DNA of 20,646 nucleotides from a virus. Position 1 is the stretch's first letter. Every line of letters starts with the position of its first letter. This document shows, one piece after another, positions 2,411 through 17,926 of this stretch. The translations under genes were made by a program, and so were the position numbers. Location of the stretch: IMG/VR virus record IMGVR_UViG_3300044984_003330, positions 1 through 20,646 of that record; one strand, given 5' to 3'. Below the pieces are notes generated by a model, which was not told the origin of the DNA, did not search any database, and saw only the letters and a program-made list of their open reading frames with translations.

Positions 2411-3786
2411 GCCTAATGTACGCGCCAGGAATACCAGTTGGCAACATGGCGCCTATCCAGGCCGCTTCTTACGATTCCGCGAGAACAACGAAGCTTAATG
2501 AACGCCATTGGGCGATCGGCCCCCAGGTATCGGATCCGACCCCAGAGCAACGCGCTACCCTTCGCAACAGAACGCGCTACGAGGTTGCCAACAATTCCTT
2601 GCTTGAGGGAATGATCGAAACCTACGCGCGGGATTTGGTTGGAAGCGGGCCGCATCCTACGTTCCGCGAGTTCGGATCCCAGCGCCGACAATTGCAGGCG
2701 GCATGGAAAGATTGGGCCGGGGAATTGTCGATCGGTTCGCTGATGAAAACGATCGCCAGGACTTACTTGATTGACGGGGAGTGTTTTTTACTTTCGATCG
2801 AGGAGCCCCCCTACGTTCGAATCATCGAGGCGGAACGGATTGTAAGCCCGCTAATGATGAACGATGCGTCAATGCAGCCCTACTGGCCAAACGCTATACC
2901 AGGGCCGAGCCAGCCAACACAGAAGCGCGAGCAAACGATCGAAGGAATCGAGTATTCGCAGGGGGTGCCGATTCATTACTACGTTGACGGGGGAAACGGA
3001 TTCACGGCCGATGTGCTTACCCATTTGTTCAAACAACAATTTGCAAATCAGCGCCGTGGGGTTCCGCGGCCAGCCCCCTCACTCGATATGCATGCGAACA
3101 TTAGGCGCACAAACCAAGCTTGCGTTATCAGCTATGAGACGGTTGCGAAAATCTCTTTAGTTTTGCAAGCGAAAATGCTATCGGCCCAAGCTACGGGCAA
3201 GCCCTTTGAGACTATCGATTTGGTGCCAGGTTCGGCCATTACTTTGCCCGAGGGATACGAGCTAGGGCAGGTCAAAGCAGAGCATCCCATGCAGAGCCAT
3301 AGGGATGCGGTTGCGATGTTCGTATGCGAGGCCGCAAGATGTTTTCCGATGCCACTCAACAAGGCGCTTGGGACTTCTCAAGATTCTAATTTCGCATCGG
3401 GTTCGCTGGATAACATCGACTACGAGCGGGCCATTGCTAGCGACCAAGTTTTGCTGGCAGAGCGATTAGTGCAAAGGCTTGTTGCTATTTTCTTGATGTT
3501 GCAAGGCCTGGAATATCAAAGGTGCTTTATCGGGTGGGATAGCATCCCGCACTTAAACCCTGAAAAGCAATTCGCAGCAATCGAAAAAAAGCTTTCCATG
3601 AGACTCACAAGCAGAACGCGGGAGGCCGCCAAACTTGGGGAGGATTGGGAGGATATCAACGAGGAGCTTGAGCGCGAAGAGCAAGCTATAGGAATGAGTC
3701 AGAACGAGCCGGGGGATAACCTTAACGGAGAGGATACAGAAGATGAGAGCGAAACGGATGCGGATGAAACCATACAAGATGATTAA
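2407..3786 (+). CDS. Phage portal protein, lambda family
   Basis: This is the dodecameric portal at the unique capsid vertex through which DNA enters and leaves. The 459-residue protein shows the lambda-portal signature region near the N-terminus: NSLLEGMIETYARDLVGSG at about residues 62-80, equivalent to the conserved stretch with DLVGTG in that family. Near residues 330-340 is a segment containing SGSLDNIDYERA, the conserved region before the C-terminal crown. The last ~40 residues are strongly acidic and probably disordered. The start ATG overlaps the preceding stop as ATGA, and its 3' end overlaps the protease-capsid gene by 44 bases, giving tight coupling of portal and capsid synthesis. 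Assignment is confident from motif and gene order. Confidence 0.92.
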   Translation: MSLMYAPGIPVGNMAPIQAASYDSARTTKLNERHWAIGPQVSDPTPEQRATLRNRTRYEVANNSLLEGMIETYARDLVGSGPHPTFREFGSQRRQLQAAWKDWAGELSIGSLMKTIARTYLIDGECFLLSIEEPPYVRIIEAERIVSPLMMNDASMQPYWPNAIPGPSQPTQKREQTIEGIEYSQGVPIHYYVDGGNGFTADVLTHLFKQQFANQRRGVPRPAPSLDMHANIRRTNQACVISYETVAKISLVLQAKMLSAQATGKPFETIDLVPGSAITLPEGYELGQVKAEHPMQSHRDAVAMFVCEAARCFPMPLNKALGTSQDSNFASGSLDNIDYERAIASDQVLLAERLVQRLVAIFLMLQGLEYQRCFIGWDSIPHLNPEKQFAAIEKKLSMRLTSRTREAAKLGEDWEDINEELEREEQAIGMSQNEPGDNLNGEDTEDESETDADETIQDD

Positions 3787-5518
3787 GGCCGCGGGCCGTA
3801 TCAATCTCTGTAGTGATGTTACTTTTGGGATTGCCCCAGTCGAGGCGGCCCAAGATGGAAAGCCGGGCAAAGTGCCCTTTCGTCAAGTGGCCTACACTGG
3901 CGCCAAAATGAGTATTCCCGGTTACAACTTTCCGGTTGTACTCAATCTCGCCGGGGCAGTGCTTTCCAATACCAGGCCGATACTACTTGAACACGATCGC
4001 AAGGCGCTCGCCGGGCAATCTAGCAAATGCGCCATCGAGGCCGAGGGGCTTGTTATTGAAGGCCACATGCTTGAGACAGCGGCCGCGGGTGAAGTGCTTG
4101 AGCTTGCAAACCAGGGCTTCCAATGGCAGGCCAGCGTTGGCGCGGCCCCATTGGCGCCGCCTCAGTTTATTCAAGCCGGATCGAGCGTTAACGTAAACAA
4201 TCAAACAGTGGACGGACCGTGTTTGGTGTTTGCCAAATGGCAGCTTGGGGAAAGTTCGTTTGTTAAGATCGGCGCGGACATGGCCACACAATCCCAGTTT
4301 GGCCAGCCGATCGCCGCGAGCTACGCAGGCCCATCGTACTTGCCATCCGTCCCAACGGGCCAGGCCCCAGGCGTTCACATGGTGCGCAATTACAACACGA
4401 ACGAATCCGCTATCGAGTGCGCTTTATTGCGGACGATCAATTGCGGATCCCAAACCGAAAAGCAATTCTCGGATGAAATCAACTCGGCCGCGGATTCGAT
4501 GCGGGGAATCACACTTCACGGAGTTATGGCCCGCAGCATCGCCGCGGCCGGGCAGACGCCACTCTATGAGCGCGTCCCGCTATACACGAAGTCTATCGAG
4601 TTGATTCAGGCTTCCCAGAATTCGACCGTAAGCCTTCCGAGAGTGTTCGCAAATACTCTTAACAAGGCCATGCTAGCCCAAATGGGAGTCATGCCGACGC
4701 TATACCAGCGCATGGTTAAAACGGATTCGGCGAGCGATTTTAGAGCGAAGAATTTTATTCGCTTGAGCGGTGTTGGTGGATTCCAAACCGTTAACGCCGA
4801 GGGCGAATTGAAATCCCTTCGCTTACTGGATGCACAATACTCGGCCAAGCTTGCGACCTTTGGTAGCATCTTGGGATTGAGCCGCGAGCAAATGGTTAAT
4901 GACGATGTGGGCGCCTTTGCGCAGTTGCCAGAGATTTTCGGGCGGGCCTCGGCCTTGGCGATCGAGCAAGAATTCCACCGCGTTTTTCTCGCCAGCTTTG
5001 TTGCCGGGAATACCATCGGCCTACCGCCAGCGGGTCACCCCCTCAACGGTGTTTTAACGGCGTTGGATTTGAGCCCATCAAACATGAACGCCCTCACGTG
5101 GGTTCTTCAGTTCTTCAGGGACCAAAGGGACTCGCAAGGGATGCCGATGATGGCCCAGCCTCAAACGTTGTTTGTGCCGACATCCTTGGAGGTGCCAGCG
5201 CTTCAAACAATGACCGCCATCAACGCGACGACCACAGCAAACACAAACGTTCTTGCGGGCCGTTTTAACGTTGAGGTTAGCCCGTACTTGAACAACGCAA
5301 ACATTGCAGGGAACAGCCAAAAGGATTGGTATATCGTTGGCAATCCCAACGTGTTGCCGTTCCTGATCCTTCTGTTCTTGAATGGAGCTTCTAGCCCCAC
5401 GTTTGAGTCCGCGGATATGGATTTTAGCGTAGTGGGTGGGATGCGTTGGCGAGGTTATTGGGACTTTGGTTTCAATGCGGCCGAGCCACAGGGGGCGGCG
5501 AAAATCGACGTCACATAG
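3743..5518 (+). CDS. Prohead protease / major capsid protein fusion
   Basis: One 591-residue polypeptide joins a prohead protease to the major capsid protein. Residues ~20-180 look like a S78-type prohead protease: catalytic His84 in LLEHDRK, a GLVIEGHML strand at 102-110, and Ser131 in FQWQASVGA. The region from ~215 to 591 matches the HK97-fold/gpT-like capsid family, with the helix-rich stretch GELKSLRLLDAQYSAKLATF followed by GLSREQMVNDDVGAF. Protease-capsid fusions are a recognised architecture in which the protease part probably acts as scaffold and is then cut off. GGAGAGG at 3728-3734 supports the ATG at 3743; in-frame ATGs at 3758 and 3764 are alternatives. A strong hairpin follows the stop. 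The cleavage site, probably between residues 180 and 215, is inferred. Confidence 0.88.
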   Translation: MRAKRMRMKPYKMIKAAGRINLCSDVTFGIAPVEAAQDGKPGKVPFRQVAYTGAKMSIPGYNFPVVLNLAGAVLSNTRPILLEHDRKALAGQSSKCAIEAEGLVIEGHMLETAAAGEVLELANQGFQWQASVGAAPLAPPQFIQAGSSVNVNNQTVDGPCLVFAKWQLGESSFVKIGADMATQSQFGQPIAASYAGPSYLPSVPTGQAPGVHMVRNYNTNESAIECALLRTINCGSQTEKQFSDEINSAADSMRGITLHGVMARSIAAAGQTPLYERVPLYTKSIELIQASQNSTVSLPRVFANTLNKAMLAQMGVMPTLYQRMVKTDSASDFRAKNFIRLSGVGGFQTVNAEGELKSLRLLDAQYSAKLATFGSILGLSREQMVNDDVGAFAQLPEIFGRASALAIEQEFHRVFLASFVAGNTIGLPPAGHPLNGVLTALDLSPSNMNALTWVLQFFRDQRDSQGMPMMAQPQTLFVPTSLEVPALQTMTAINATTTANTNVLAGRFNVEVSPYLNNANIAGNSQKDWYIVGNPNVLPFLILLFLNGASSPTFESADMDFSVVGGMRWRGYWDFGFNAAEPQGAAKIDVT

Positions 5519-5631: not shown

Positions 5632-6969
5632 ATGCCAAATACAATTTGCCGATCGTTTCAAGAGGGTAGCAGAATCGACCATACGCCAAGCGCGGACTTA
5701 GGCGCGGGGGTTATCGTCGTTCTAAACGTGGGGGCGGGTCAAAACAGGATAAAGGGAGTTGCTACGAGCGACATACCAGCCAATACGCCCGGATCCCTTG
5801 ATGCAACGCATGGACGGATTTACGAATGCGCTTTTGTGCCAGGTTCCAATCTAGTGGATATGCAGGATATCTTCGTTGAGCCGGACGGGGATTTAGTCCT
5901 CACTTCCAACAGTGGAGCAAACCCAAAGTTCGGCCAATGCGTTGGAGCGTATCTCGCCGCAGCAACGGCCGTACTTGTCAGAGCAACTTTTCTATTGTTG
6001 TTCATGCTTGGCGTTGCACTTGGCCAAGATTGTGCGGACGGAAAGTGTATACCAGTTGAGGCTAACGTCATCGTTGCCGATACCCCGCACGTTCGATGCA
6101 TGGTTGGGAATAGTTGCGGGAGTGGGACAATTTGCGGAATCGATGCGACGGGCGCCTATGTTTTGTCCAATGCCCATGTTTGGGGAACGCAACTCGGAAA
6201 GGTTGTCAACATCGATGCCGTAGTGGGTGGAGTTCAAAAACGGACTCAGGGCCGCTTGGTGTTCGCTGGATACTCCAGCACGAGAATGGTTGATTTCGCG
6301 ATTGCCCTATGTCCAAACCTCAAGAGCGAGCGCTATATGCCATTGCTACGAACAGAGCCAGCGGGCCAGCCGTTCGAAACAATTGGCAGCCCGAGATGTG
6401 TTTGGCCGCAAGTGCGAAAACCCTTTAACGACCCTCGCAACTATGGCGATGGTTTAGTCACAGGTTCGCCGGATGCGATCGGGGGGCAAAGTGGTAGCGC
6501 TATCTACAACGCGGCCGGGCAGCAAATCGCCCTTCTCACATGGTCTATCAATGGTCGATGTGCGGGCCAAAAGACTTCCAAGCTATGGCAGGTTGCAACT
6601 AGCCGAAACGTATTGCTCGCCGATGTTCGGCCCGAGGGGCTTAGGGAAATGGGCGAGCCATGCCAGGAAGGCGTATTCGGTTCGGTTCCTTTCCTGCAGG
6701 AAGTGCAATCAGGAAGTGTTCGTCCAGTGACGGAAAACGTGATCGCCTCGCTAGCCTCATCCTCCATGGAGCAAATGCCGATTTGGTTCGACGCCAGCAA
6801 GCCAGAGCCAGCGCCAGATTGTTTTGAACTCACAGAGCAAGAAAAGGAGTTGATTAAATTCCTTCGCAAACAAGCAGAAACGGGCGTAGGCGAAACCAAA
6901 TACAACTGGGCCGAAATCATTCGCCTGGTCCTGGAGCTTATTGCCATCATCAACAAAAAAGGGAACTAA
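5632..6969 (+). CDS. Fusion: capsid-decoration-like domain plus trypsin-like serine protease
   Basis: A 445-residue protein of two parts. Residues 1-~118 resemble DUF2190-type capsid decoration proteins: beta-rich, ending GQCVGAYLAAATAVLVRA, the usual end of such a protein. Without a stop it runs into a signal-peptide-like hydrophobic segment (about 117-131, with LLLFMLGVALG) and then a chymotrypsin-fold protease. The full triad is visible: His182 (LSNAHVWG), Asp221 (VDFAIAL) and Ser287 (GGQSGSAI). Seven or more cysteines lie in the protease half. The tail (about 398-445) is helical and ends NKKGN. AGAGG at 5621-5625 supports the ATG at 5632. No ribosome binding site precedes the internal ATG at 6004, so a true fusion is favoured. 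Possible roles are virion maturation, degradation of host surface protein, or egress; none is shown. Confidence 0.78.
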   Translation: MPNTICRSFQEGSRIDHTPSADLGAGVIVVLNVGAGQNRIKGVATSDIPANTPGSLDATHGRIYECAFVPGSNLVDMQDIFVEPDGDLVLTSNSGANPKFGQCVGAYLAAATAVLVRATFLLLFMLGVALGQDCADGKCIPVEANVIVADTPHVRCMVGNSCGSGTICGIDATGAYVLSNAHVWGTQLGKVVNIDAVVGGVQKRTQGRLVFAGYSSTRMVDFAIALCPNLKSERYMPLLRTEPAGQPFETIGSPRCVWPQVRKPFNDPRNYGDGLVTGSPDAIGGQSGSAIYNAAGQQIALLTWSINGRCAGQKTSKLWQVATSRNVLLADVRPEGLREMGEPCQEGVFGSVPFLQEVQSGSVRPVTENVIASLASSSMEQMPIWFDASKPEPAPDCFELTEQEKELIKFLRKQAETGVGETKYNWAEIIRLVLELIAIINKKGN

Positions 6970-7392: not shown

Positions 7393-8229
7393 ATGCCGCT
7401 AACACTCGATAAACTCATTGGGGCCTATAAACAGGTTGTTCCCCTTACAAAAACGACCGTTCTCACGACCGTTGCGGGGATTCCGTTTACTCTATTCGAC
7501 CGCGCAGGCGTTCCGGCCGCGGGGAGTCTAAACCCAGGCAACACGACAACCGGTATCGTTCCAGTCGATACCGACGCAACAGGGTACCCGGTGCTTGATA
7601 ATCCCTTGGGGACCAACAAGCTTTATTTGTCGAGGGTTGCGATAAACGGCAGCGTTGCTATGTCAATCGATCTCTACGACGTATTGTTCATGGCGGGCCA
7701 AACGACGATCCCAACGAGCGGGACAACGACCGTTGCCCTAACAAGCCGACCTAGTTTCAGTGGCCGCGTTCCGTTTTTGGCGGACGGTGTAACGCGCGAT
7801 TGGTCACGCGTAGAGTTGTTTATTCAAGCAAGTACCGCGCTTTCCAATCACACCCATACTTGCTCGATTGATTATCTTGACCAAGGCGGAGCCGCGAGCA
7901 ACACGGGCAACGTATCAACGCAAGCTATTACCATCAATCGATGGATCCGTTGCCCGCTAGCGGCGGGCGATTCAGGCGTTCAAGAAATCACAGGATACAA
8001 CGTCAACGGCGTGGCTAGCGCTACGGGCAGCCTTTCCGTGTTGGCAGCCCGAAGACTAGGAAGCTTTCGCACACAGGGCGGTTTGTCCTCGCTCTACGGG
8101 CCAGACTATACGGGCTTGCCCGAGTTGTACGGCAACTCGGCCATCGTGATGGTATGCCGTTCGGATAGTACAAGTTCCGGCACTCCAGACGTCTTGATTG
8201 AAGTCGCGCACATGGATCCCAACGCCTAA
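7393..8229 (+). CDS. Conserved phage structural protein (278 aa)
   Basis: A 278-residue, Thr/Ser/Gly-rich protein beginning MPLTLDKLIGAYKQVVPLTK. It is predicted beta-rich, without cofactor or catalytic motifs. It resembles a phage family that regularly follows the 139-residue protein upstream, with a conserved start (LDKLIGAYKQ), a central SRVAINGSV-type strand and LPLQAGDTG-like motif (here CPLAAGDSG near residue 190), and a C-terminal YGNSAIVMV. It is likely a virion protein of the head-tail region or a decoration element. It begins three bases after the previous stop with little ribosome binding site, so translation is probably coupled. The stop overlaps the next start as TAATG. Function is not established. 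Confidence 0.7.
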   Translation: MPLTLDKLIGAYKQVVPLTKTTVLTTVAGIPFTLFDRAGVPAAGSLNPGNTTTGIVPVDTDATGYPVLDNPLGTNKLYLSRVAINGSVAMSIDLYDVLFMAGQTTIPTSGTTTVALTSRPSFSGRVPFLADGVTRDWSRVELFIQASTALSNHTHTCSIDYLDQGGAASNTGNVSTQAITINRWIRCPLAAGDSGVQEITGYNVNGVASATGSLSVLAARRLGSFRTQGGLSSLYGPDYTGLPELYGNSAIVMVCRSDSTSSGTPDVLIEVAHMDPNA

Positions 8230-9254
8230 TGTACGCAAATTTGAGACTCCTCGGACTCGGACTTACCAGGCCGCATTTACGCGGTTTAAGTTCGACCGTG
8301 CAAAATCTCAGCCATTGCGGGGTTTGCAAGTATCCATCGATTCAATCCGAAATGCTTTTCGGCCCGCCAAGCCCGCCAAGCGCCGTGACGGGAACTATAA
8401 CGCGGACCTTGGCAAATGCGACGCTTGTCGCAGTGGATTCAGTTGGAGGAGTGACCGGAACGCTAACGCGGACGTTGGACAACGCTACGGTTGCCAGCGC
8501 GGGCAGTATTGCGACCGGCCCGAGCGGAACGCTAACGCGGACGTTGGACAACGCTACGGTTGCCAGCGCGGGCAGTATTGCGAGCGGCCCGAGCGGAACG
8601 CTAACGCGGACCTTGGCCAACGCTACGGTTGCCAGCGCGGGCAGTATTGCGAGCGGCCCGATCGGAACGCTAACGCGGACCTTGGCCAACGCTACACTTG
8701 CCAGCGCTGGCAGCATCGCGAACGGCCCGAGCGGAACGTTAACGCAGAGCTTGGCCAACGCTACACTTGCCAGCGCGGGCAGCGTTGCGACCAGCCCGAT
8801 CGGAACGCTAACGCGGACCTTGGCCAATGCTACACTTGCCAGCGCGGGCAACGTGGTCAACAACGATCCGATCGGGAGCGGAACGGTAACGCATACGTTG
8901 GCCAACGCTACGCTACAGTCGATAGCGATCGCAGTTTCTAACGATGACCTTGACGATATGTCGGATATCATCGAGGCCAACGCCGAATTGATTGGCTACA
9001 CGTTTTCGGGGAGCGTTGGCCAATGTCGCGCATGGTGGGGCCGCCAGGATCGAGAGGTTAAACGCGTAGACGGTGCCAGGCTTGCTTTTACGAAACGAGA
9101 CTTGATGGTGGTCCGCGCCGATCTCCCAAGGGAGCCAAAAGCAGGCGATCAATTTTCGGCCGAAGGGGTTTGGACGGTTCGACCCAGAGGGGAGGATTGC
9201 TTCACAGCTTCCGACCGCAGGGCAAAACTCTTGAGAGTATACGTGACGAAATGA
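8229..9254 (+). CDS. 23-residue-repeat protein fused to a head-completion-like domain
   Basis: A 341-residue protein in three parts. Residues 1-~50 are of unclear quality. Residues 55-~237 contain eight units of the motif GTLTRTLANATLASAGSIASGPS, at residues 55, 77, 100, 123, 146, 169, 192 and 218. Residues ~239-341 form a separate domain with ADLPREPKAGDQF and an end FTASDRRAKLLRVYV that resembles head-tail joining (stopper/gpFII-like) proteins, whose C-termini have a similar aromatic-SD-R-RI pattern. The position just before the tail-terminator-like gene fits head completion. The start at 8229 is chosen by TAATG overlap. The ATG at 8352, directly before the PPSPPSAVTG linker, is an alternative, because the N-terminal 41 residues are not convincing protein. 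Repeat function is unknown; a surface decoration or adhesive arm is possible. Confidence 0.65.
   Translation: MYANLRLLGLGLTRPHLRGLSSTVQNLSHCGVCKYPSIQSEMLFGPPSPPSAVTGTITRTLANATLVAVDSVGGVTGTLTRTLDNATVASAGSIATGPSGTLTRTLDNATVASAGSIASGPSGTLTRTLANATVASAGSIASGPIGTLTRTLANATLASAGSIANGPSGTLTQSLANATLASAGSVATSPIGTLTRTLANATLASAGNVVNNDPIGSGTVTHTLANATLQSIAIAVSNDDLDDMSDIIEANAELIGYTFSGSVGQCRAWWGRQDREVKRVDGARLAFTKRDLMVVRADLPREPKAGDQFSAEGVWTVRPRGEDCFTASDRRAKLLRVYVTK
8391..8942 (+). repeat. Eight tandem repeats, mostly 69 bp, in coding sequence
   Basis: Units start at 8391, 8457, 8526, 8595, 8664, 8733, 8802 and 8880. The first spacing is 66 bp, the next five are 69 bp and the last is 78 bp. The units at 8457 and 8526 differ by a single base, and that at 8595 differs from its neighbour by about three, indicating recent duplication. 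Outer units are more divergent. Period lengths divisible by 3 keep the reading frame and also keep two other frames open, which explains the long shadow frames here. Expected to vary in copy number between relatives. Confidence 0.9.
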
Positions 9255-10969: not shown

Positions 10970-11160
10970 TGGCCCTAGGCCGCTTTGAGGCGGATTGCTT
11001 AATTGCGGCGAGGGTTTGCGCGGGGCTTGGGACGGTGCTTAATTGGGGAGGCCATAGTTTTACCCCTTCGCAGTTCATGCCAGGCGAGCAAGCGGCCAAG
11101 CCCGCCAAGATCGAAGCCAGCCTAGCGATAGAAGCCCTTCACGGAGTTTACCTAAGATGA
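10894..11160 (+). CDS. Tail assembly chaperone, T-like -1 frame extension
   Basis: The -1 frame relative to the G-like gene carries a typical gpT-like segment, IWKLAGRIGIDPKPFTYRQ, followed by LDLMALGRFEADCLIAARV and about 45 more residues, ending at 11160. The conserved-looking part starts before any sensible start codon, which implies a -1 ribosomal frameshift from the G-like gene somewhere in about 10858-10905. No classic X-XXY-YYZ heptamer is present; A-AAA-G at 10864-10868 is the best weak candidate. An ATG at 10969 overlapping the G stop (TAATG) could also give a 63-residue product by reinitiation. The given start marks the conserved frame, not an initiation codon. The stop overlaps the tape measure ATG. 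Confidence 0.65.
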   Translation: METIWKLAGRIGIDPKPFTYRQLDLMALGRFEADCLIAARVCAGLGTVLNWGGHSFTPSQFMPGEQAAKPAKIEASLAIEALHGVYLR

Positions 11161-13112
11161 GCCGAGCAGACATCAGAGCGGGGGGCGGATACGTTGAGCT
11201 ATCCACGCGTGACGCAAAATTCTATGCAGGCCTCAAGCGCTCTCTTGGGGCCGCCAGCAAGTGGGCCGGATCGATCGGCAAATTGTCCGCGGTTGGGGCC
11301 GCGGGCTTTCTAGCGGGCGGAATCGGAATCCAGGGCGGGCTTCAGGCGATTACTTCGGCCATCAGTGGATTTTCAATCCTCGGGTTTACGAAAAGCTTCG
11401 CCGATGCCGGGAGCGCCATCGATGACATGAGCCAACGGACCGGAATAGCGGCCGAGCAACTTTCGGCGCTGCAGTTCGTTGCTCAAATGAACGATGCCAC
11501 GCTTCAGGATGTTGGCGTTGCGGTGAAGGGGATGAGCAACTTTCTATTTGCGGCCGCAAGTGGATCCGAGGAGGCGACCGAGGCTATCCAAAAACTCGGG
11601 TTGAGCCTCCGAGCATTACGCCAGGCCGATCAATTCGGCCGCTTTCGAATGCTTTCCGCGGCCCTCGGCCAGATTGGGGATCCGGCCATTAAAGCCGCCA
11701 TGGCCATGAAGGTGTTTGGGAAAGGTGCTATTGCGTTGTTGCCGATGATAAACGCGGGGGCCGCTTCTTTCGATGAACTCACGGCCAAGGCCAAGGAACT
11801 CGGGTTAGTCATGAGCGCCGAGGATGCGAGCGCCGCGGCCGAGCTTGGGGATTTGCTGGATACCGTAAGCTTGGCGGCCTCGGGCCTATCGAAAAAGCTT
11901 GGGGCCGCGTTGACACCACAGGTCACGAAGCTACTCGGAACAGCGATAAAAATTATCAGCCCGATAGGCCAGTGGATCGAAGCAAACCGGGATTTGATCG
12001 GGACCATTGTTCCGATCGCCTCGGCGGGGTTTGCGGCCGCGGCCGGTGTTGCGTTGCTCGCCGGGGGGCTTAGTTTGCTTGCTCCGTTGGTGCCACTCGC
12101 CGCGTTCTTTGGATCGGCGTTGCTTGCGGCCGGAGCCGCGGCCCGAGTTGTTTACCGCAACTTCGGTACACTCGCCAGTATTGGCGGCCAAGCTTTCAGC
12201 TTCATCGCATCAAGTGCGGCCAGTGCTATAGGTTCCCTTGGTGGAAACTTCCGATCATTCCTAAATTGGGTTGTCGGTGGGTTCCGGTCATTCGCGAGCG
12301 GTGCCATCGAGAACCTATCCGCCATCGCAACGGCCGTAAGCAATGGCGAGCTTGGGGCCGCGTTTGATTTAGTTCTCGCAACTTTCGACATGGCATGGGA
12401 TTCTACCATTGCAGCATTCCAGGCCGGTTGGGGCGAGCTTACCAATAACATGGCGTTGTTAGGGATCGAGGCCGCCTACGCGTTTTGGATCGCTTGGGAA
12501 AACGCTTTCGCAGGCATCAAGACGCTAGGCATTGACGTCAGTTCAACGCTTCGGAAGGCTTGGTTTGGTTTGCAATATGAGCTTGCAGGCATGGCCGAAT
12601 TCACTGGGATCGCCGCGCCGGGTTCTCAAGCCGCCATGGCCCAAGATTTGATCGATCAAGACAACGCAGCCAACGCCGCGGGCCAGGCTAGGAAAAAGGA
12701 AATCGAGGCCCAACGCCAGGCCGCAGTTGGAGGGCTTGAGGCAAACCGGACGATTGACAGGGACGCCAACGCAGCCCAGGGCCAGCGCCGAGGCGATGCC
12801 GCGGCCGAGCGAGTGTCAAAGGCCATGGAGGCATACAATAAAGCCCTTGCGGCCGCCAAGGCCGCGAAGGGCAAAGCTAACGATGGAAGCGCGGGAGGAC
12901 TCGGGCCGCTTGCGCTCAAAATGCCAGGCATGCCAGGCTTCGAGGGCTTCGGCGAGTCAGCAACAAACCGAGCGGAAAGCGTGGGAACATTTTCGGGCTT
13001 CGGTGCGGCCGTGGGTTCGACCGTCAAATACGACCAAGAGCAAGTGAAGCAACTTGGCAAAATTCATGATACCTTGCGAGAGATCGCTTTGAGAAATTTG
13101 GGGATAGCGTAA
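11157..13112 (+). CDS. Tail tape measure protein
   Basis: A 651-residue tape measure, which sets tail length and is ejected with DNA. It shows the usual features: an N-terminal helical region with SAIDDMSQRTGIAAEQLSAL (about 86-105), a recurring signature of phage tape measures. Ala/Gly-rich hydrophobic stretches follow at about 285-335, a possible membrane-inserting part. Then come tryptophan-rich segments and a charged, coiled-coil-prone region at about 500-590 rich in Ala, Lys, Glu and Gln. By the known scaling of roughly 0.15 nm per residue, the tail would be near 100 nm. The start overlaps the preceding stop by ATGA. It is short for a siphophage, matching the compact genome. Confidence 0.92.
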   Translation: MSRADIRAGGGYVELSTRDAKFYAGLKRSLGAASKWAGSIGKLSAVGAAGFLAGGIGIQGGLQAITSAISGFSILGFTKSFADAGSAIDDMSQRTGIAAEQLSALQFVAQMNDATLQDVGVAVKGMSNFLFAAASGSEEATEAIQKLGLSLRALRQADQFGRFRMLSAALGQIGDPAIKAAMAMKVFGKGAIALLPMINAGAASFDELTAKAKELGLVMSAEDASAAAELGDLLDTVSLAASGLSKKLGAALTPQVTKLLGTAIKIISPIGQWIEANRDLIGTIVPIASAGFAAAAGVALLAGGLSLLAPLVPLAAFFGSALLAAGAAARVVYRNFGTLASIGGQAFSFIASSAASAIGSLGGNFRSFLNWVVGGFRSFASGAIENLSAIATAVSNGELGAAFDLVLATFDMAWDSTIAAFQAGWGELTNNMALLGIEAAYAFWIAWENAFAGIKTLGIDVSSTLRKAWFGLQYELAGMAEFTGIAAPGSQAAMAQDLIDQDNAANAAGQARKKEIEAQRQAAVGGLEANRTIDRDANAAQGQRRGDAAAERVSKAMEAYNKALAAAKAAKGKANDGSAGGLGPLALKMPGMPGFEGFGESATNRAESVGTFSGFGAAVGSTVKYDQEQVKQLGKIHDTLREIALRNLGIA

Positions 13113-13981
13113 TGCCAACATTAGGAGAGGATCTACCCGTTGAGGGAACGCCATACCCCGAGCTGCCGGGCGGTGCGCTTTCCTTGTTTGACATCACAAT
13201 GGAGGAACGGAACGACTCCCGATCCATCGTGTCAGGGGTCAATCAGGATCGAGAAATCCGACGCTATGCGCTATGGTGCAACAACGATAGCGCTATCGAT
13301 GATGAATACTTGGAATACTACATTCGTTCCAAGATCGAGAATAACGCACCGGCCGAAGTCGATGGGGGCCTACGGCCCAAGATCATTCGAATCGAGCCCC
13401 AGCGGGGCGGGATATTTCATGCCGATGTTGAGTATGGTTTGATCGACGTTACGGCCGGATTTGAATTCGATACGACCGGGGGAACTACCTTGATGCGCCA
13501 AAGCTTTGGCACTCGCCGCTATGGTTCGGGGCCGGTGTTTGGCGGCCTCATCAATTGCAGAGATGGAAAAGTAGAAGGCGTTGAGATTACCCAGCCAGTC
13601 ATGACCTTTTCCGAAACGCGCAGCTTCATCAACGTATCAAACGCCTACCGCAATTTTCTTTACCGAATGACCGGCCGAGTCAATTCGGGGGCTTTCAAGG
13701 GAACGGCCGCGGGTGAATGTCTGTTCATGGGTGCCAGGGGCCGCAAACAAGGCCGAGACAATTGGACCGTTCAATTCAACTTCGCTTGCTCCGAGAATTT
13801 AACGAGCTTGAGTCTCGCAGGCGGTGCGGTTGTTGTAGATTCGAAACTAGGTTGGGAATACTTATGGATGTACTATGAGGACAAGGTAGATTCCGATCGA
13901 TTGATTCCTTACCCTCAAGCCGCCTACGTGGAGCAAACGTACCTTCTCGCAGATTTGACAGCCCTTGGGATCGGAAGTTGA
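13112..13981 (+). CDS. Distal tail-region structural protein
   Basis: A 289-residue protein directly after the tape measure, the position of the distal tail (Dit-like) protein. It has long beta-rich segments and a C-terminal part with MTGRVNSGAFKGTAAGECLF, then FACSENLTSL and GWEYLWMYYEDKVD followed by AAYVEQTYLLADL. I recognise this combination as a conserved protein found after tape measures in phages and prophages of planctomycetes, where it is normally annotated hypothetical. It probably forms part of the tail tip ring. The ATG overlaps the last base of the tape measure stop (TAATG). Three bases separate its stop from the next gene. The precise role is inferred from order. Confidence 0.7.
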   Translation: MPTLGEDLPVEGTPYPELPGGALSLFDITMEERNDSRSIVSGVNQDREIRRYALWCNNDSAIDDEYLEYYIRSKIENNAPAEVDGGLRPKIIRIEPQRGGIFHADVEYGLIDVTAGFEFDTTGGTTLMRQSFGTRRYGSGPVFGGLINCRDGKVEGVEITQPVMTFSETRSFINVSNAYRNFLYRMTGRVNSGAFKGTAAGECLFMGARGRKQGRDNWTVQFNFACSENLTSLSLAGGAVVVDSKLGWEYLWMYYEDKVDSDRLIPYPQAAYVEQTYLLADLTALGIGS

Positions 13982-13984
13982 AAT

Positions 13985-14719
13985 ATGTGGCCCGTAAAGT
14001 TCAAAGGCGATGCATTCATACCAACGGCCCAAGAATTCCAGGCCCAGCGCCAGGCGATGCAATTGGCCTTGAGAAAGTCAATTCAGAAAACCGCCCCAGG
14101 AATGGAAGTTAGTTTCGAATCTCAAACGTTGGTCAGAGTCAAAGCCCACGCGACGCTAGCGCGTTGGAGTCCGATAGGCATTCAAGACGGGCCCATGTTT
14201 ACCTTTGCGGGCGCGGGCTTCCCAAAAGGAATGGAGGAACGGACAGCCCTTCAAGGGGCCGCGCTCGCAAACCGCAAACCGTGGGGGATACTCGCCGAGC
14301 CGGTGGCGGCCAATAAGTTCGCATGGGTGATCGTCAAAGGGATCGCGCTCGCCAACGTGACGATCGACAACACGGCCCGACCTAACATCGGTTGCGATTG
14401 CGAAACAGGCCAGGCGGCCCTAGTGGTGAAGGAAGGCGGCCCCGCGAGGATCCTATACCGCCAGGCGGGGACAGGCTTGCGGCCGTGCATTATCGACATA
14501 TCGCCTACAACTCCAAGATTCTTCGTTGGGACCAATGCGGCGAGCAGCATAGCGCCGGGGTTCTTCGGGTTGATAACAGCCACAGGGGATACTTCGTTTA
14601 TTGTGTGGGCCAAAAATGAAAGCCCCACGGGAACGGTTGCAGCAAGTGCCAAGGTTGGATGTACTTGGGACGACCTACAACGAAGCTACGTTATCACCCT
14701 AGAGTTTTGCGAGGCTTGA
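13985..14719 (+). CDS. Tail tip / baseplate protein of unknown function
   Basis: A 244-residue protein in the tail tip block. The first ~45 residues are helical and charged (TAQEFQAQRQAMQLALRKS), followed by a longer beta-rich, Ala/Gly-rich section. A short NIGCDCETGQAALV motif near residue 135 has a Cys-x-Cys, and the end contains CTWDDLQRSYVITLEFCEA. No catalytic motif is visible. The start at 13985 follows the previous stop by three bases, with GGAAGTTGAA as a poor ribosome binding site. Its place between the Dit-position protein and the cysteine-rich protein suggests a hub or spike component, but I do not recognise the family firmly. Confidence 0.6.
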   Translation: MWPVKFKGDAFIPTAQEFQAQRQAMQLALRKSIQKTAPGMEVSFESQTLVRVKAHATLARWSPIGIQDGPMFTFAGAGFPKGMEERTALQGAALANRKPWGILAEPVAANKFAWVIVKGIALANVTIDNTARPNIGCDCETGQAALVVKEGGPARILYRQAGTGLRPCIIDISPTTPRFFVGTNAASSIAPGFFGLITATGDTSFIVWAKNESPTGTVAASAKVGCTWDDLQRSYVITLEFCEA

Positions 14720-14722
14720 AGC

Positions 14723-15796
14723 ATGCCATGCGACATGAAAAATGTGCCAGGGGATCCATGTTGCGGAGGGGCTTCTTGTTTATGCGGTGCCGCTTGGGCG
14801 CTAGAGGATTGGAGCTTCACTGTATTTGGCAAAACGTTTAGCGGGGGTTGGAGCCCAGCGATATTGGAGCCAGAAACTTGCGCTAGGTCAGGTGCCGATT
14901 GTGTTTACGATGCCCCGCTATTGGTTGTGGATACCATTGAGGATAGCGGTTGGATTGATTTGGAAATGCCGGTGTTGTCGGCCTTATGTCTATGCGATGC
15001 CTGTGGCGGATATGCCGGCCGAAAGGTTCAGCATTGGAGACGGAGCGCCGCCTATTGTTCCCGCGTTGCGGTTTGGCATCATGTGCAAACCTACGCTTCG
15101 TTCAGTGCAATTTCTTGCGGTGCCAGCGGAGTGAAGTTTTTCTCAAACGTGATTTACTCCATCACGCGAATTGTGCAAGCTACCGACCGCATAAGCAATC
15201 GATACAAGAAATGGGAGCGCGATTGTGACGCAGGAACACAAGAGGAAGTGGGCGATTTTGTTTATCGATGTGGAGACGTCGACGACTACATAATTGGATC
15301 GATTGTTCTTCCGTGTCGTTGGCCCCAGCTAAATACCGCAGGCCTATGCGCTCAGAGTACGAATCTCACAATACCAGATTGCGCCCCCGCGGTGGAAGGG
15401 TTGGTGTTGAACGATGTGATCCGATTGCGTTGCATTGACGGTGCTTGCGTGTCAGTTACTACCGCCGAGCTCTTTGCATGTGCGGCCGGCAATTTGGATG
15501 GAGGTTGCGCTTGTAGCCAGCCTTTCCAATCTTGCACTTTCGGAGTACCTATTGACTCTGGCACGGGATCGAGAGCGCAAAGGCGTCAGTATTCCATCGA
15601 CTACGAATCCGAATGTTACGATTGCGGTTCACTTCCATCGACAGTCGAGCTTGAAAGAACGGGTTCATTGCCGGGCATTGCAGGTACCGGGGATGTTACG
15701 CTTAACGTTTTTGATTCTGCTACGGGGTCCGGTTGCGGGACAGCTCCGGCCGTTCCAATAACAATACCCTTCTTGCTTTCGGTTGCGATTTCATGA
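14723..15796 (+). CDS. Cysteine-rich tail tip protein
   Basis: A 357-residue protein with about 26 cysteines (roughly 7 percent), far above its neighbours. They occur in clusters such as PGDPCCGGASCLCGAA (residues 9-24), LCLCDAC near 88-94, and GGCACSQPFQSC near 268-279. Pairs spaced by one or two residues suggest either many disulfides or bound metal. It lacks an N-terminal signal peptide, so it is probably made in the cytoplasm and assembled in the tail tip. It follows the tail tip gene by three bases (ATG at 14723), and its stop overlaps the start of the Erv1-like gene by ATGA, so the two are translated together. That coupling suggests disulfide formation is needed. The family is not recognised. 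Confidence 0.65.
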   Translation: MPCDMKNVPGDPCCGGASCLCGAAWALEDWSFTVFGKTFSGGWSPAILEPETCARSGADCVYDAPLLVVDTIEDSGWIDLEMPVLSALCLCDACGGYAGRKVQHWRRSAAYCSRVAVWHHVQTYASFSAISCGASGVKFFSNVIYSITRIVQATDRISNRYKKWERDCDAGTQEEVGDFVYRCGDVDDYIIGSIVLPCRWPQLNTAGLCAQSTNLTIPDCAPAVEGLVLNDVIRLRCIDGACVSVTTAELFACAAGNLDGGCACSQPFQSCTFGVPIDSGTGSRAQRRQYSIDYESECYDCGSLPSTVELERTGSLPGIAGTGDVTLNVFDSATGSGCGTAPAVPITIPFLLSVAIS

Positions 15797-16173
15797 TTCC
15801 TACCGTTATCAAACTTACCCGAGAGCAGGCCCTAGAGCGAATTGCAAACCACGATCTATTCATCAATAGAGATACGGCCGAGAATCCTTCGGAGCCTATC
15901 GATACCGAGTTCGTCAAAAAATTGCAGCGAGCACACTGGGAGGAGATTCACACAAACCAAATGAGCCCAGAGCAATTTTCGTTGTGGCTAGAAACCATTC
16001 CAGGCGTTTGCAATTGTCGGCAAAAGGCCGCCAAGATAATCGCCGCAAATCCCCCCCGATTTGATGATTGGTTTCGGTGGGGTTGGGAGTTCCATAACGC
16101 AGTCAACGCGGAGCTTGGCAAGCCATCGATTGCCTACGATGAGGCTTCGGCGTTTTGGCGTTGGGTTAGCTAG
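15793..16173 (+). CDS. Small Erv1/ALR-like CxC protein
   Basis: A 126-residue protein whose C-terminal half resembles the Erv1/ALR sulfhydryl oxidase core. The match is PGVCNCRQKAAKII (Cys73-x-Cys75), then NPPRFDDWFRWGWEFHNAVNAELGKP with His101, Asn102 and Asn105, like the FAD-binding HN-x-VN-x-x-LGKP of ALR proteins. Real ALR proteins carry CxxC; here the pair is CxC, so oxidase activity is not certain. The N-terminal half is helical and charged and may bind partner proteins. It starts at 15793 by ATGA overlap with the cysteine-rich tail gene, suggesting it forms or arranges disulfides in that protein. An in-frame ATG at 15733 lies inside the upstream gene and is unlikely. Similar small proteins occur in planctomycete phages, usually unannotated. 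Confidence 0.65.
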   Translation: MIPTVIKLTREQALERIANHDLFINRDTAENPSEPIDTEFVKKLQRAHWEEIHTNQMSPEQFSLWLETIPGVCNCRQKAAKIIAANPPRFDDWFRWGWEFHNAVNAELGKPSIAYDEASAFWRWVS

Positions 16174-17856: not shown

Positions 17857-17879
17857 GGTAGCGCCTTAGTTGCAATGGA

Positions 17880-17926
17880 AGCGGATTGCAAATCCGCCAT
17901 CGTGGGTTCAACTCCCACCGGAGCCT
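17880..17926 (+). other. attP: Phage attachment site core (attP): 3' half of tRNA-Cys(GCA)
   Basis: The segment holds a complete tRNA-type anticodon arm: stem GCGGA (17881-17885) and TCCGC (17893-17897), with loop TTGCAAA containing anticodon GCA for cysteine. A 4-base variable loop follows, then a T arm GTGGG-TTCAACT-CCCAC (17902-17918) and CGGAGCC (17919-17925) as the 3' acceptor strand. The matching 5' acceptor GGCTCCG and a proper D arm are absent, so it is not an intact tRNA gene. Integrases of this type commonly use a tRNA 3' half so that insertion restores the host tRNA. The integrase gene starts about 470 bases downstream, as expected. Confidence 0.8.

Follow-up and report, generated by a model that had tools for sequence, protein, structure and literature searches.

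A CxC variant of the Erv/ALR family predicted beside a cysteine-rich, putative tail protein in tailed phages

A 126-amino-acid protein encoded in the tail module of a phage genome was identified, by profile and predicted fold, as a CxC variant of the Erv/ALR family. A test for the CxxC signature failed, and for that reason the protein was kept apart from the canonical Erv/ALR sulfhydryl oxidases. Its gene overlaps that of a protein with 26 cysteines, and comparable gene pairs were found in dozens of phage lineages. In the reading that we consider probable, the small protein works as a FAD-dependent thiol oxidase with an Erv/ALR fold and uses a CxC center to form disulfides, within the cytoplasm, in a cognate virion protein; FAD binding, activity, disulfides, tail location, and cytoplasmic action are all inferred. 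A wider proposal is favored only slightly. It holds that a two-gene disulfide system is spread among diverse tailed phages, Verrucomicrobiota prophages among them, with a CxC Erv/ALR oxidase cross-linking, in the bacterial cytoplasm, a tail protein that is encoded beside it and scaffolded by disulfides.

Genome context of the gene pair

The window (the whole 20,646-base stretch of DNA analyzed, an IMG/VR virus record) encodes a terminase, a portal, a fused protease-capsid protein, a tape-measure protein, an integrase, and a replication initiator and, on its predicted gene content, represents all or part of a temperate tailed phage. The features of the tail module are as follows.

11157..13112 (+): tail tape-measure protein, 651 aa (phrog_8462; E value, 1.1e-25)
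13112..13981 (+): tail-module gene of unknown function, 289 aa (ORF list; without Pfam or PHROG family match)
13985..14719 (+): tail-module gene of unknown function, 244 aa (ORF list; without Pfam or PHROG family match)
14723..15796 (+): cysteine-rich partner, 357 aa, 26 Cys (7.3%) (position behind the tape-measure module; Cys kept in relatives)
15793..15796 (+): ATGA stop/start overlap (sequence; the ATG of the putative oxidase gene shares four bases with the TGA stop of the partner)
15793..16173 (+): ALR/Erv-like protein, 126 aa from the ATG (PF04777 above cut-off; AlphaFold2 helices; PDB fold matches; dN/dS)
15937..15951 (+): WEEIH, matching the W..xH conserved in helix 1 of Erv/ALR proteins (in alignment A1, neither W49 nor H53 varies)
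16009..16017 (+): CNC, the CxC dithiol, C73 (distal) and C75 (C75 column invariant; alignment to human ALR, 3o55)
16093..16125 (+): HNAVNAELGKP, residues 101 to 111, the ALR-family FAD-binding signature (aligns with HNEVNRKLGKP of human ALR)

The partner gene lies three genes after the tape-measure gene, and no other gene of the window that encodes 90 aa or more is as rich in cysteine (median of the others, 1.4% Cys). The product of 13112..13981 is possibly a distal tail protein, by position alone. An initial annotation of this DNA described the small gene as overlapping the stop of a tail protein with about 26 cysteines; the ATGA overlap and the 26 cysteines were found as described, while the designation "tail" remains positional only, as the partner had no Pfam or PHROG family match. 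From its place in the gene order, the partner is a probable tail-tip or fiber component and the proposed substrate. The ATGA overlap suggests translational coupling of the pair, which is inferred.

Other features of the window were also recorded. A single ORF at 3743-5518 (+) apparently fuses a head-maturation protease and a major capsid protein (phrog_4523, phrog_133, and phrog_3244), and one at 5632-6969 (+) combines a Phage_cement_2 domain (26.0 bits; cut-off, 24) with a trypsin-like peptidase stretch scoring below cut-off (19.1 bits). The protein encoded at 8229-9254 (+) carries repeated GTLTRTLANATVASAGSIASGP-type units, and other frames across the same stretch are likewise open and repetitive. 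A tRNA-Cys-like sequence with GCA in the anticodon loop was located at 17863-17926 (+), ∼450 bases ahead of the integrase gene (18378); it scored 25.0 bits against the Rfam tRNA model (cut-off, 29), its D-arm is degraded, and ARAGORN gave no call. This sequence is probably the attachment site of a phage integrating in tRNA-Cys.

Family membership and predicted fold

The motifs PGVCNCRQ and HNAVNAELGKP, from which a resemblance to ALR/Erv1 had been proposed in the initial annotation, are both present in the product of 15793-16173 (C73/C75 and residues 101 to 111, respectively). The resemblance held up in a profile search and in a structure prediction, either of which, according to that annotation, could have refuted it; each found a relation to the ALR/Erv four-helix bundle. 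The protein scored 35.1 bits with the Pfam family PF04777 (Evr1_Alr), for which the curated cut-off is 27.6 (E value, 1.7e-8), and the FAD-binding signature of W..xH plus HNxVNxxLGK is complete (W49, H53, and H101 to P111). C73 (codon, 16009-16011) and C75 (codon, 16015-16017) are its only cysteines, and no structural or shuttle disulfide cysteines beyond this flavin-proximal pair are present in the 126 aa. Shuttle cysteine pairs differ among known Erv/ALR members. Searches of the PHROG profiles with the protein returned no family match (best E value, 0.19).

A scan of IMG/VR viral contigs with the pattern HNxVNxxLGKP identified at least 119 true relatives, grouping into about 35 clusters when cut at 60% identity, which rules out a curiosity confined to one phage; three further motif matches (L016, L082, and L122) were spurious and were dropped. 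All 58 relatives that were aligned (alignment A1) matched PF04777 at an E value of ≤0.01, and W49, H53, and C75 were invariant among them. Because relatives were picked on HNxVNxxLGKP alone, the invariance of that motif is built in, whereas the other three residues were not selected on. A profile search with the phage proteins recovered human ALR (2.8e-17), pB119L of African swine fever virus (ASFV; 7e-16), and yeast Erv1 (3.2e-15), along with Erv2 and QSOX1, and no match outside ALR, Erv, pB119L, and QSOX1 at an E value of ≤0.001. In the reciprocal profile alignment, C75 falls opposite the latter of the two cysteines in CEEC of ALR. A chance motif match was ruled out by the Pfam profile, the fold, and the reciprocal profile searches. 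The top phmmer matches (protein A-type tag fusions and a Mediator subunit entry) were disregarded as apparent chance resemblances between helices. The dN/dS ratio was 0.11 between the window gene and its nearest relative, L001, and 0.09 to 0.33 between relatives; by this measure, the ALR-like gene is under purifying selection.

AlphaFold2, supplied with 58 sequences, modeled helices at residues 38 to 54, 59 to 68, 75 to 85, 93 to 108, and 115 to 122, corresponding to a four-helix bundle with a short fifth helix. Block-mean confidence was 82 to 96 from residue 41 on, and residues 1 to 37 were mostly low. The best 24 PDB fold matches obtained with Foldseek were all ALR, Erv1, Erv2, or ASFV pB119L, each with a probability of 1.00, and the next, unrelated fold followed at 0.08. 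The Foldseek E values were modest for a small domain (best, 1.6e-3), with TM-scores of ∼0.5, partly because residues 1 to 37 were mostly modeled at low confidence.

Cysteine-rich partners

Loci with an ALR-like gene formed 37 clusters at 60% identity, of which 35 had usable gene context. Proteins were scored as cysteine-rich when they contained at least 8 Cys and 4% Cys. Among the matches listed, the gene immediately upstream (position −1) was cysteine-rich in 28 of the 35 clusters, either neighbor in 29, and a gene within −2 to +1 in 31, compared with 12 of 249 nearby genes of at least 120 aa (4.8%; binomial P for position −1, ∼6e-31, with the caveat that the clusters are not fully independent). 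By phmmer, the cysteine-rich partners divide into 15 sequence families, and descent from a single ancestral gene pair is therefore insufficient to account for the whole pattern. When the search was reversed, using the N-terminal motif of one partner family, 46 loci were identified, and an ALR-like gene lay next downstream in all 43 contigs that continued past the gene; these included LGKT, LAKP, and LSKP variants beyond the reach of the HNxVNxxLGKP pattern. As these 43 loci come from related phages, they indicate stable coupling within a lineage and not independent origins. Co-occurrence with cysteine-rich proteins, which the initial annotation had suggested surveying among homologues and the absence of which it listed as refuting, was recovered from both directions. 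In the window, as in the distant clusters L011, L021, L029, L037, L046, L047, and L049, a tape-measure gene precedes the pair by a few genes, a position that holds in most cases checked. No partner meeting the threshold was found in 4 of the 35 clusters (L046, L047, L085, and L110), nor at the Rubritalea locus (L126) and the archaeal locus (L127).

Cysteine conservation in the partners is strong. Within the subfamily of the window's partner, 21 to 24 of ∼25 Cys positions are kept in most relatives at 42 to 60% identity, and in an alignment of 52 partner proteins, 25 columns were conserved at ≥90%, of which 20 were cysteine. Such conservation is typical of disulfide scaffolds; metal sites would conserve cysteine too, and the disulfides are inferred. 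Both the disulfides and the tail location of the partner rest on cysteine conservation and gene order. Disulfide pairing could not be read from cysteine covariation across the 52 partners, since the perfectly concordant column pairs inspected change once on the tree and were given no weight; two concordant Cys pairs in the window's own partner subfamily are probably single events also. Comparison of 31 partners with Pfam and PHROG gave no meaningful match, and an AlphaFold2 model of the partner (eight sequences) had a pLDDT of 48, too low for a fold search.

Metal or Fe-S coordination has been reported for some siphophage tail-tip proteins. The partner could likewise coordinate metal or an Fe-S cluster through an N-terminal CCC/CxC cluster and other cysteines, with the ALR-like protein protecting or loading the thiols. 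The tail-tip-like position of its gene would fit, as would an N-terminal poly-Cys motif (e.g., MGxxGxCCCxC, CCC, or CCxC) in 25 of 31 partners, where shuffled sequences gave a mean of 2.3. We nevertheless consider this unlikely: the partners typically carry 15 to 46 Cys along the whole chain, far above the need of one cluster; the enzyme comes from a thiol-oxidase family, and oxidation destroys rather than builds thiolate sites; and no zinc or Fe-S family was matched beyond one weak zf-CXXC hit.

Several variations in the neighborhood of the ALR-like gene were noted. The gene at +1 (in L004, L008, L017, L027, and others) matched calcineurin-like metallophosphatases in 7 of 18 scanned sequences. 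In L110 (8240-9667, −), the ALR-like domain forms the C-terminal part of a fusion that also matches glycosyltransferase family 29 (sialyltransferase), and in L007, L009, L036, and L125 it is followed in the same ORF by an extra 200 to 300 aa without Pfam match. Some six or seven genes ahead of the ALR gene, an ORF of ∼103 to 112 aa with 9 or 10 Cys recurs in L006, L009, L027, and L078, and may be a second cysteine-rich virion protein or a spurious ORF.

The CxC center, proposed mechanism, and distribution

On translation, the family follows the layout W..LH, then IP..CxC or IP.CxxC, then W..xHNxVNxKLGKP....EA...W. The 119 matches listed, which were chosen regardless of cysteine, comprised 98 with CxC, 20 with CxxC, and one with CX6C (L049). 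The window protein lacks the FAD-adjacent CxxC redox center of the family and has CNC instead, with the first Cys shifted by one and the position of the second kept. We know of no characterized Erv enzyme with a CxC flavin-proximal center. Among the matches listed, the nearest relatives outside the window's own 97% group (L006, L027, L044, L109, and L111; 39 to 47% identity) are CxxC proteins, in which PGCSTC occupies a segment of equal length to PGVCNC of the window, and their upstream partners are 42 to 61% identical to the window's partner. On these alignments, CxC and CxxC seem interchangeable, and a first Cys that has shifted by one among near relatives, with the slot of the gene unchanged, argues for a working variant and against a decayed site. 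The number of CxC/CxxC switches is not claimed; the best tree gave at least seven, and well-supported branches force only one.

In other proteins, CxC motifs function as isomerases or as relay sites. Such precedents, including the CxC of Mia40 (mentioned in PMC8557897), together with the replacement of CxxC and the absence of a second (shuttle) Cys pair, could point to a non-catalytic or isomerase-like protein, namely, a binding partner or chaperone that retains the fold without oxidizing. The initial annotation had raised this possibility, and had also held that homologues without cysteines would refute its ALR reading; the dithiol was kept as CxC or CxxC in 118 of the 119 matches listed. A non-catalytic role appears quite improbable, given also that A1 shows no exception to C75, the residue opposite the second Cys in CxxC of ALR, that the nearest relatives have CxxC in the same slot with homologous partners adjoining, that the FAD motif is intact, and that the gene is under purifying selection. 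A thiol oxidase aimed mainly at host or general cytosolic thiols (redox takeover or defense evasion), its position reflecting shared regulation only, would suit the loci without a recognized cysteine-rich neighbor (L046, L085, L110, and L126) and the one clade with a metallophosphatase-like protein as the next gene, but is highly improbable, as it is at odds with adjacency to 15 unrelated partner families and at 43 of 43 loci of one family, and shared regulation alone leaves the cysteine-richness of the neighbor unexplained.

That the window protein works as a thiol oxidase is regarded as likely but unproven, with FAD binding and activity inferred. Counted against the main reading were the missing CxxC signature, the lack of extra shuttle cysteines, the low pLDDT of the partner model, the phylogenetic confounding of the covariation, the loci without a qualifying partner, the incomplete independence of the clusters, and the modest Foldseek scores. 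In the mechanism proposed, the cysteine-rich protein and the oxidase would be made together, for which gene order and the ATGA overlap are observed and coupling is inferred. The oxidase would bind FAD, as inferred from the intact motif and the fold; by homology, the CxC disulfide would take electrons from substrate thiols and C75 would hand them on to FAD, and the resulting FADH2 would presumably be reoxidized by O2 or another acceptor. Independently of the host periplasmic Dsb pathway, the partner would be disulfide-bonded before or during tail assembly; that it joins the tail is inferred from gene position. Oxidation would have to be cytoplasmic because no signal-peptide-like N terminus was evident on either the ALR-like protein or the partner. 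Thioredoxin and glutaredoxin normally oppose disulfide formation in the bacterial cytoplasm. Cytoplasmic oxidation is chemically reasonable because yeast Erv1p promotes disulfide formation in the cytoplasm of E. coli (PMC3526497).

The window protein shares with ALR, Erv1, and Erv2 (PF04777; PDB 3o55, 3w4y, and 1jra) the profile, four helices plus a C-terminal helix, W..xH, HNxVNxxLGKP, and a dithiol with which the helix following the IP motif begins. It differs in the CxC that replaces CxxC, as in most phage relatives among the matches listed, in a shorter segment between W..xH and the dithiol, in the absence of structural and shuttle Cys pairs, and in being encoded in a phage tail module beside a gene for a cysteine-rich protein. 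Virus-encoded Erv-type proteins are also represented by ASFV pB119L, which was matched by both profile and fold, vaccinia virus E10R, and mimivirus R596. To our knowledge, these viruses, which infect eukaryotes, keep CxxC; the carriers here, in contrast, are tailed phages and prophages in which the gene for the presumed substrate adjoins. Poxvirus E10R has been linked to virion morphogenesis (PMC10598087). The bacterial Dsb and VKOR systems likewise make protein disulfides but are periplasmic or membrane bound and quinone linked, whereas the proposed phage pathway is inferred to be soluble, flavin based, and cytoplasmic. If true, the proposal would show a route by which phages make disulfide-hardened tail parts in the cytoplasm, extend Erv/ALR virion oxidation from eukaryotic viruses to phages, as a prokaryotic-virus counterpart to the pathways by which giant viruses form virion disulfides, and supply a small matched pair of oxidase and substrate with which disulfides could be produced in the cytoplasm. 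A CxC flavin-proximal center would also pose a testable question, that of how the Erv mechanism tolerates a shifted first Cys.

A tblastn search of 50,697 INPHARED records with the window protein and three other representatives gave no match, nor did PLSDB plasmid records for the representatives tried, and a literature search found no report of phage-encoded Erv/ALR proteins (subscription papers were outside its scope). Relatives in genomes were found mainly among Verrucomicrobiota. PF04777 was detected in 3 of 388 Verrucomicrobiota genomes, in all three within prophage-like tail regions with the same gene order as the window: a 178-aa protein with 7 Cys followed by a GCNCR protein (L123), a 241-aa protein with 7 Cys followed by a GCGCQ protein (L128/L179), and a 571-aa protein with 32 Cys followed by an NCPCR protein (L129/L180). 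PF04777 proteins listed as bacterial in Pirellula, Verrucomicrobiaceae, and other groups (PMC10598087) belong to the same Pfam family, and their bacterial groups overlap with those of the phage-borne set. Since three Verrucomicrobiota genomes carry PF04777 in prophage tail modules, at least some "bacterial" members are viral; some of the "bacterial" entries may be prophage genes, which would bear on the origin of the family. A contig from a Nitrososphaeraceae MAG, possibly viral, encodes a canonical CGDC ALR protein without a cysteine-rich neighbor (L127:1785-2513).
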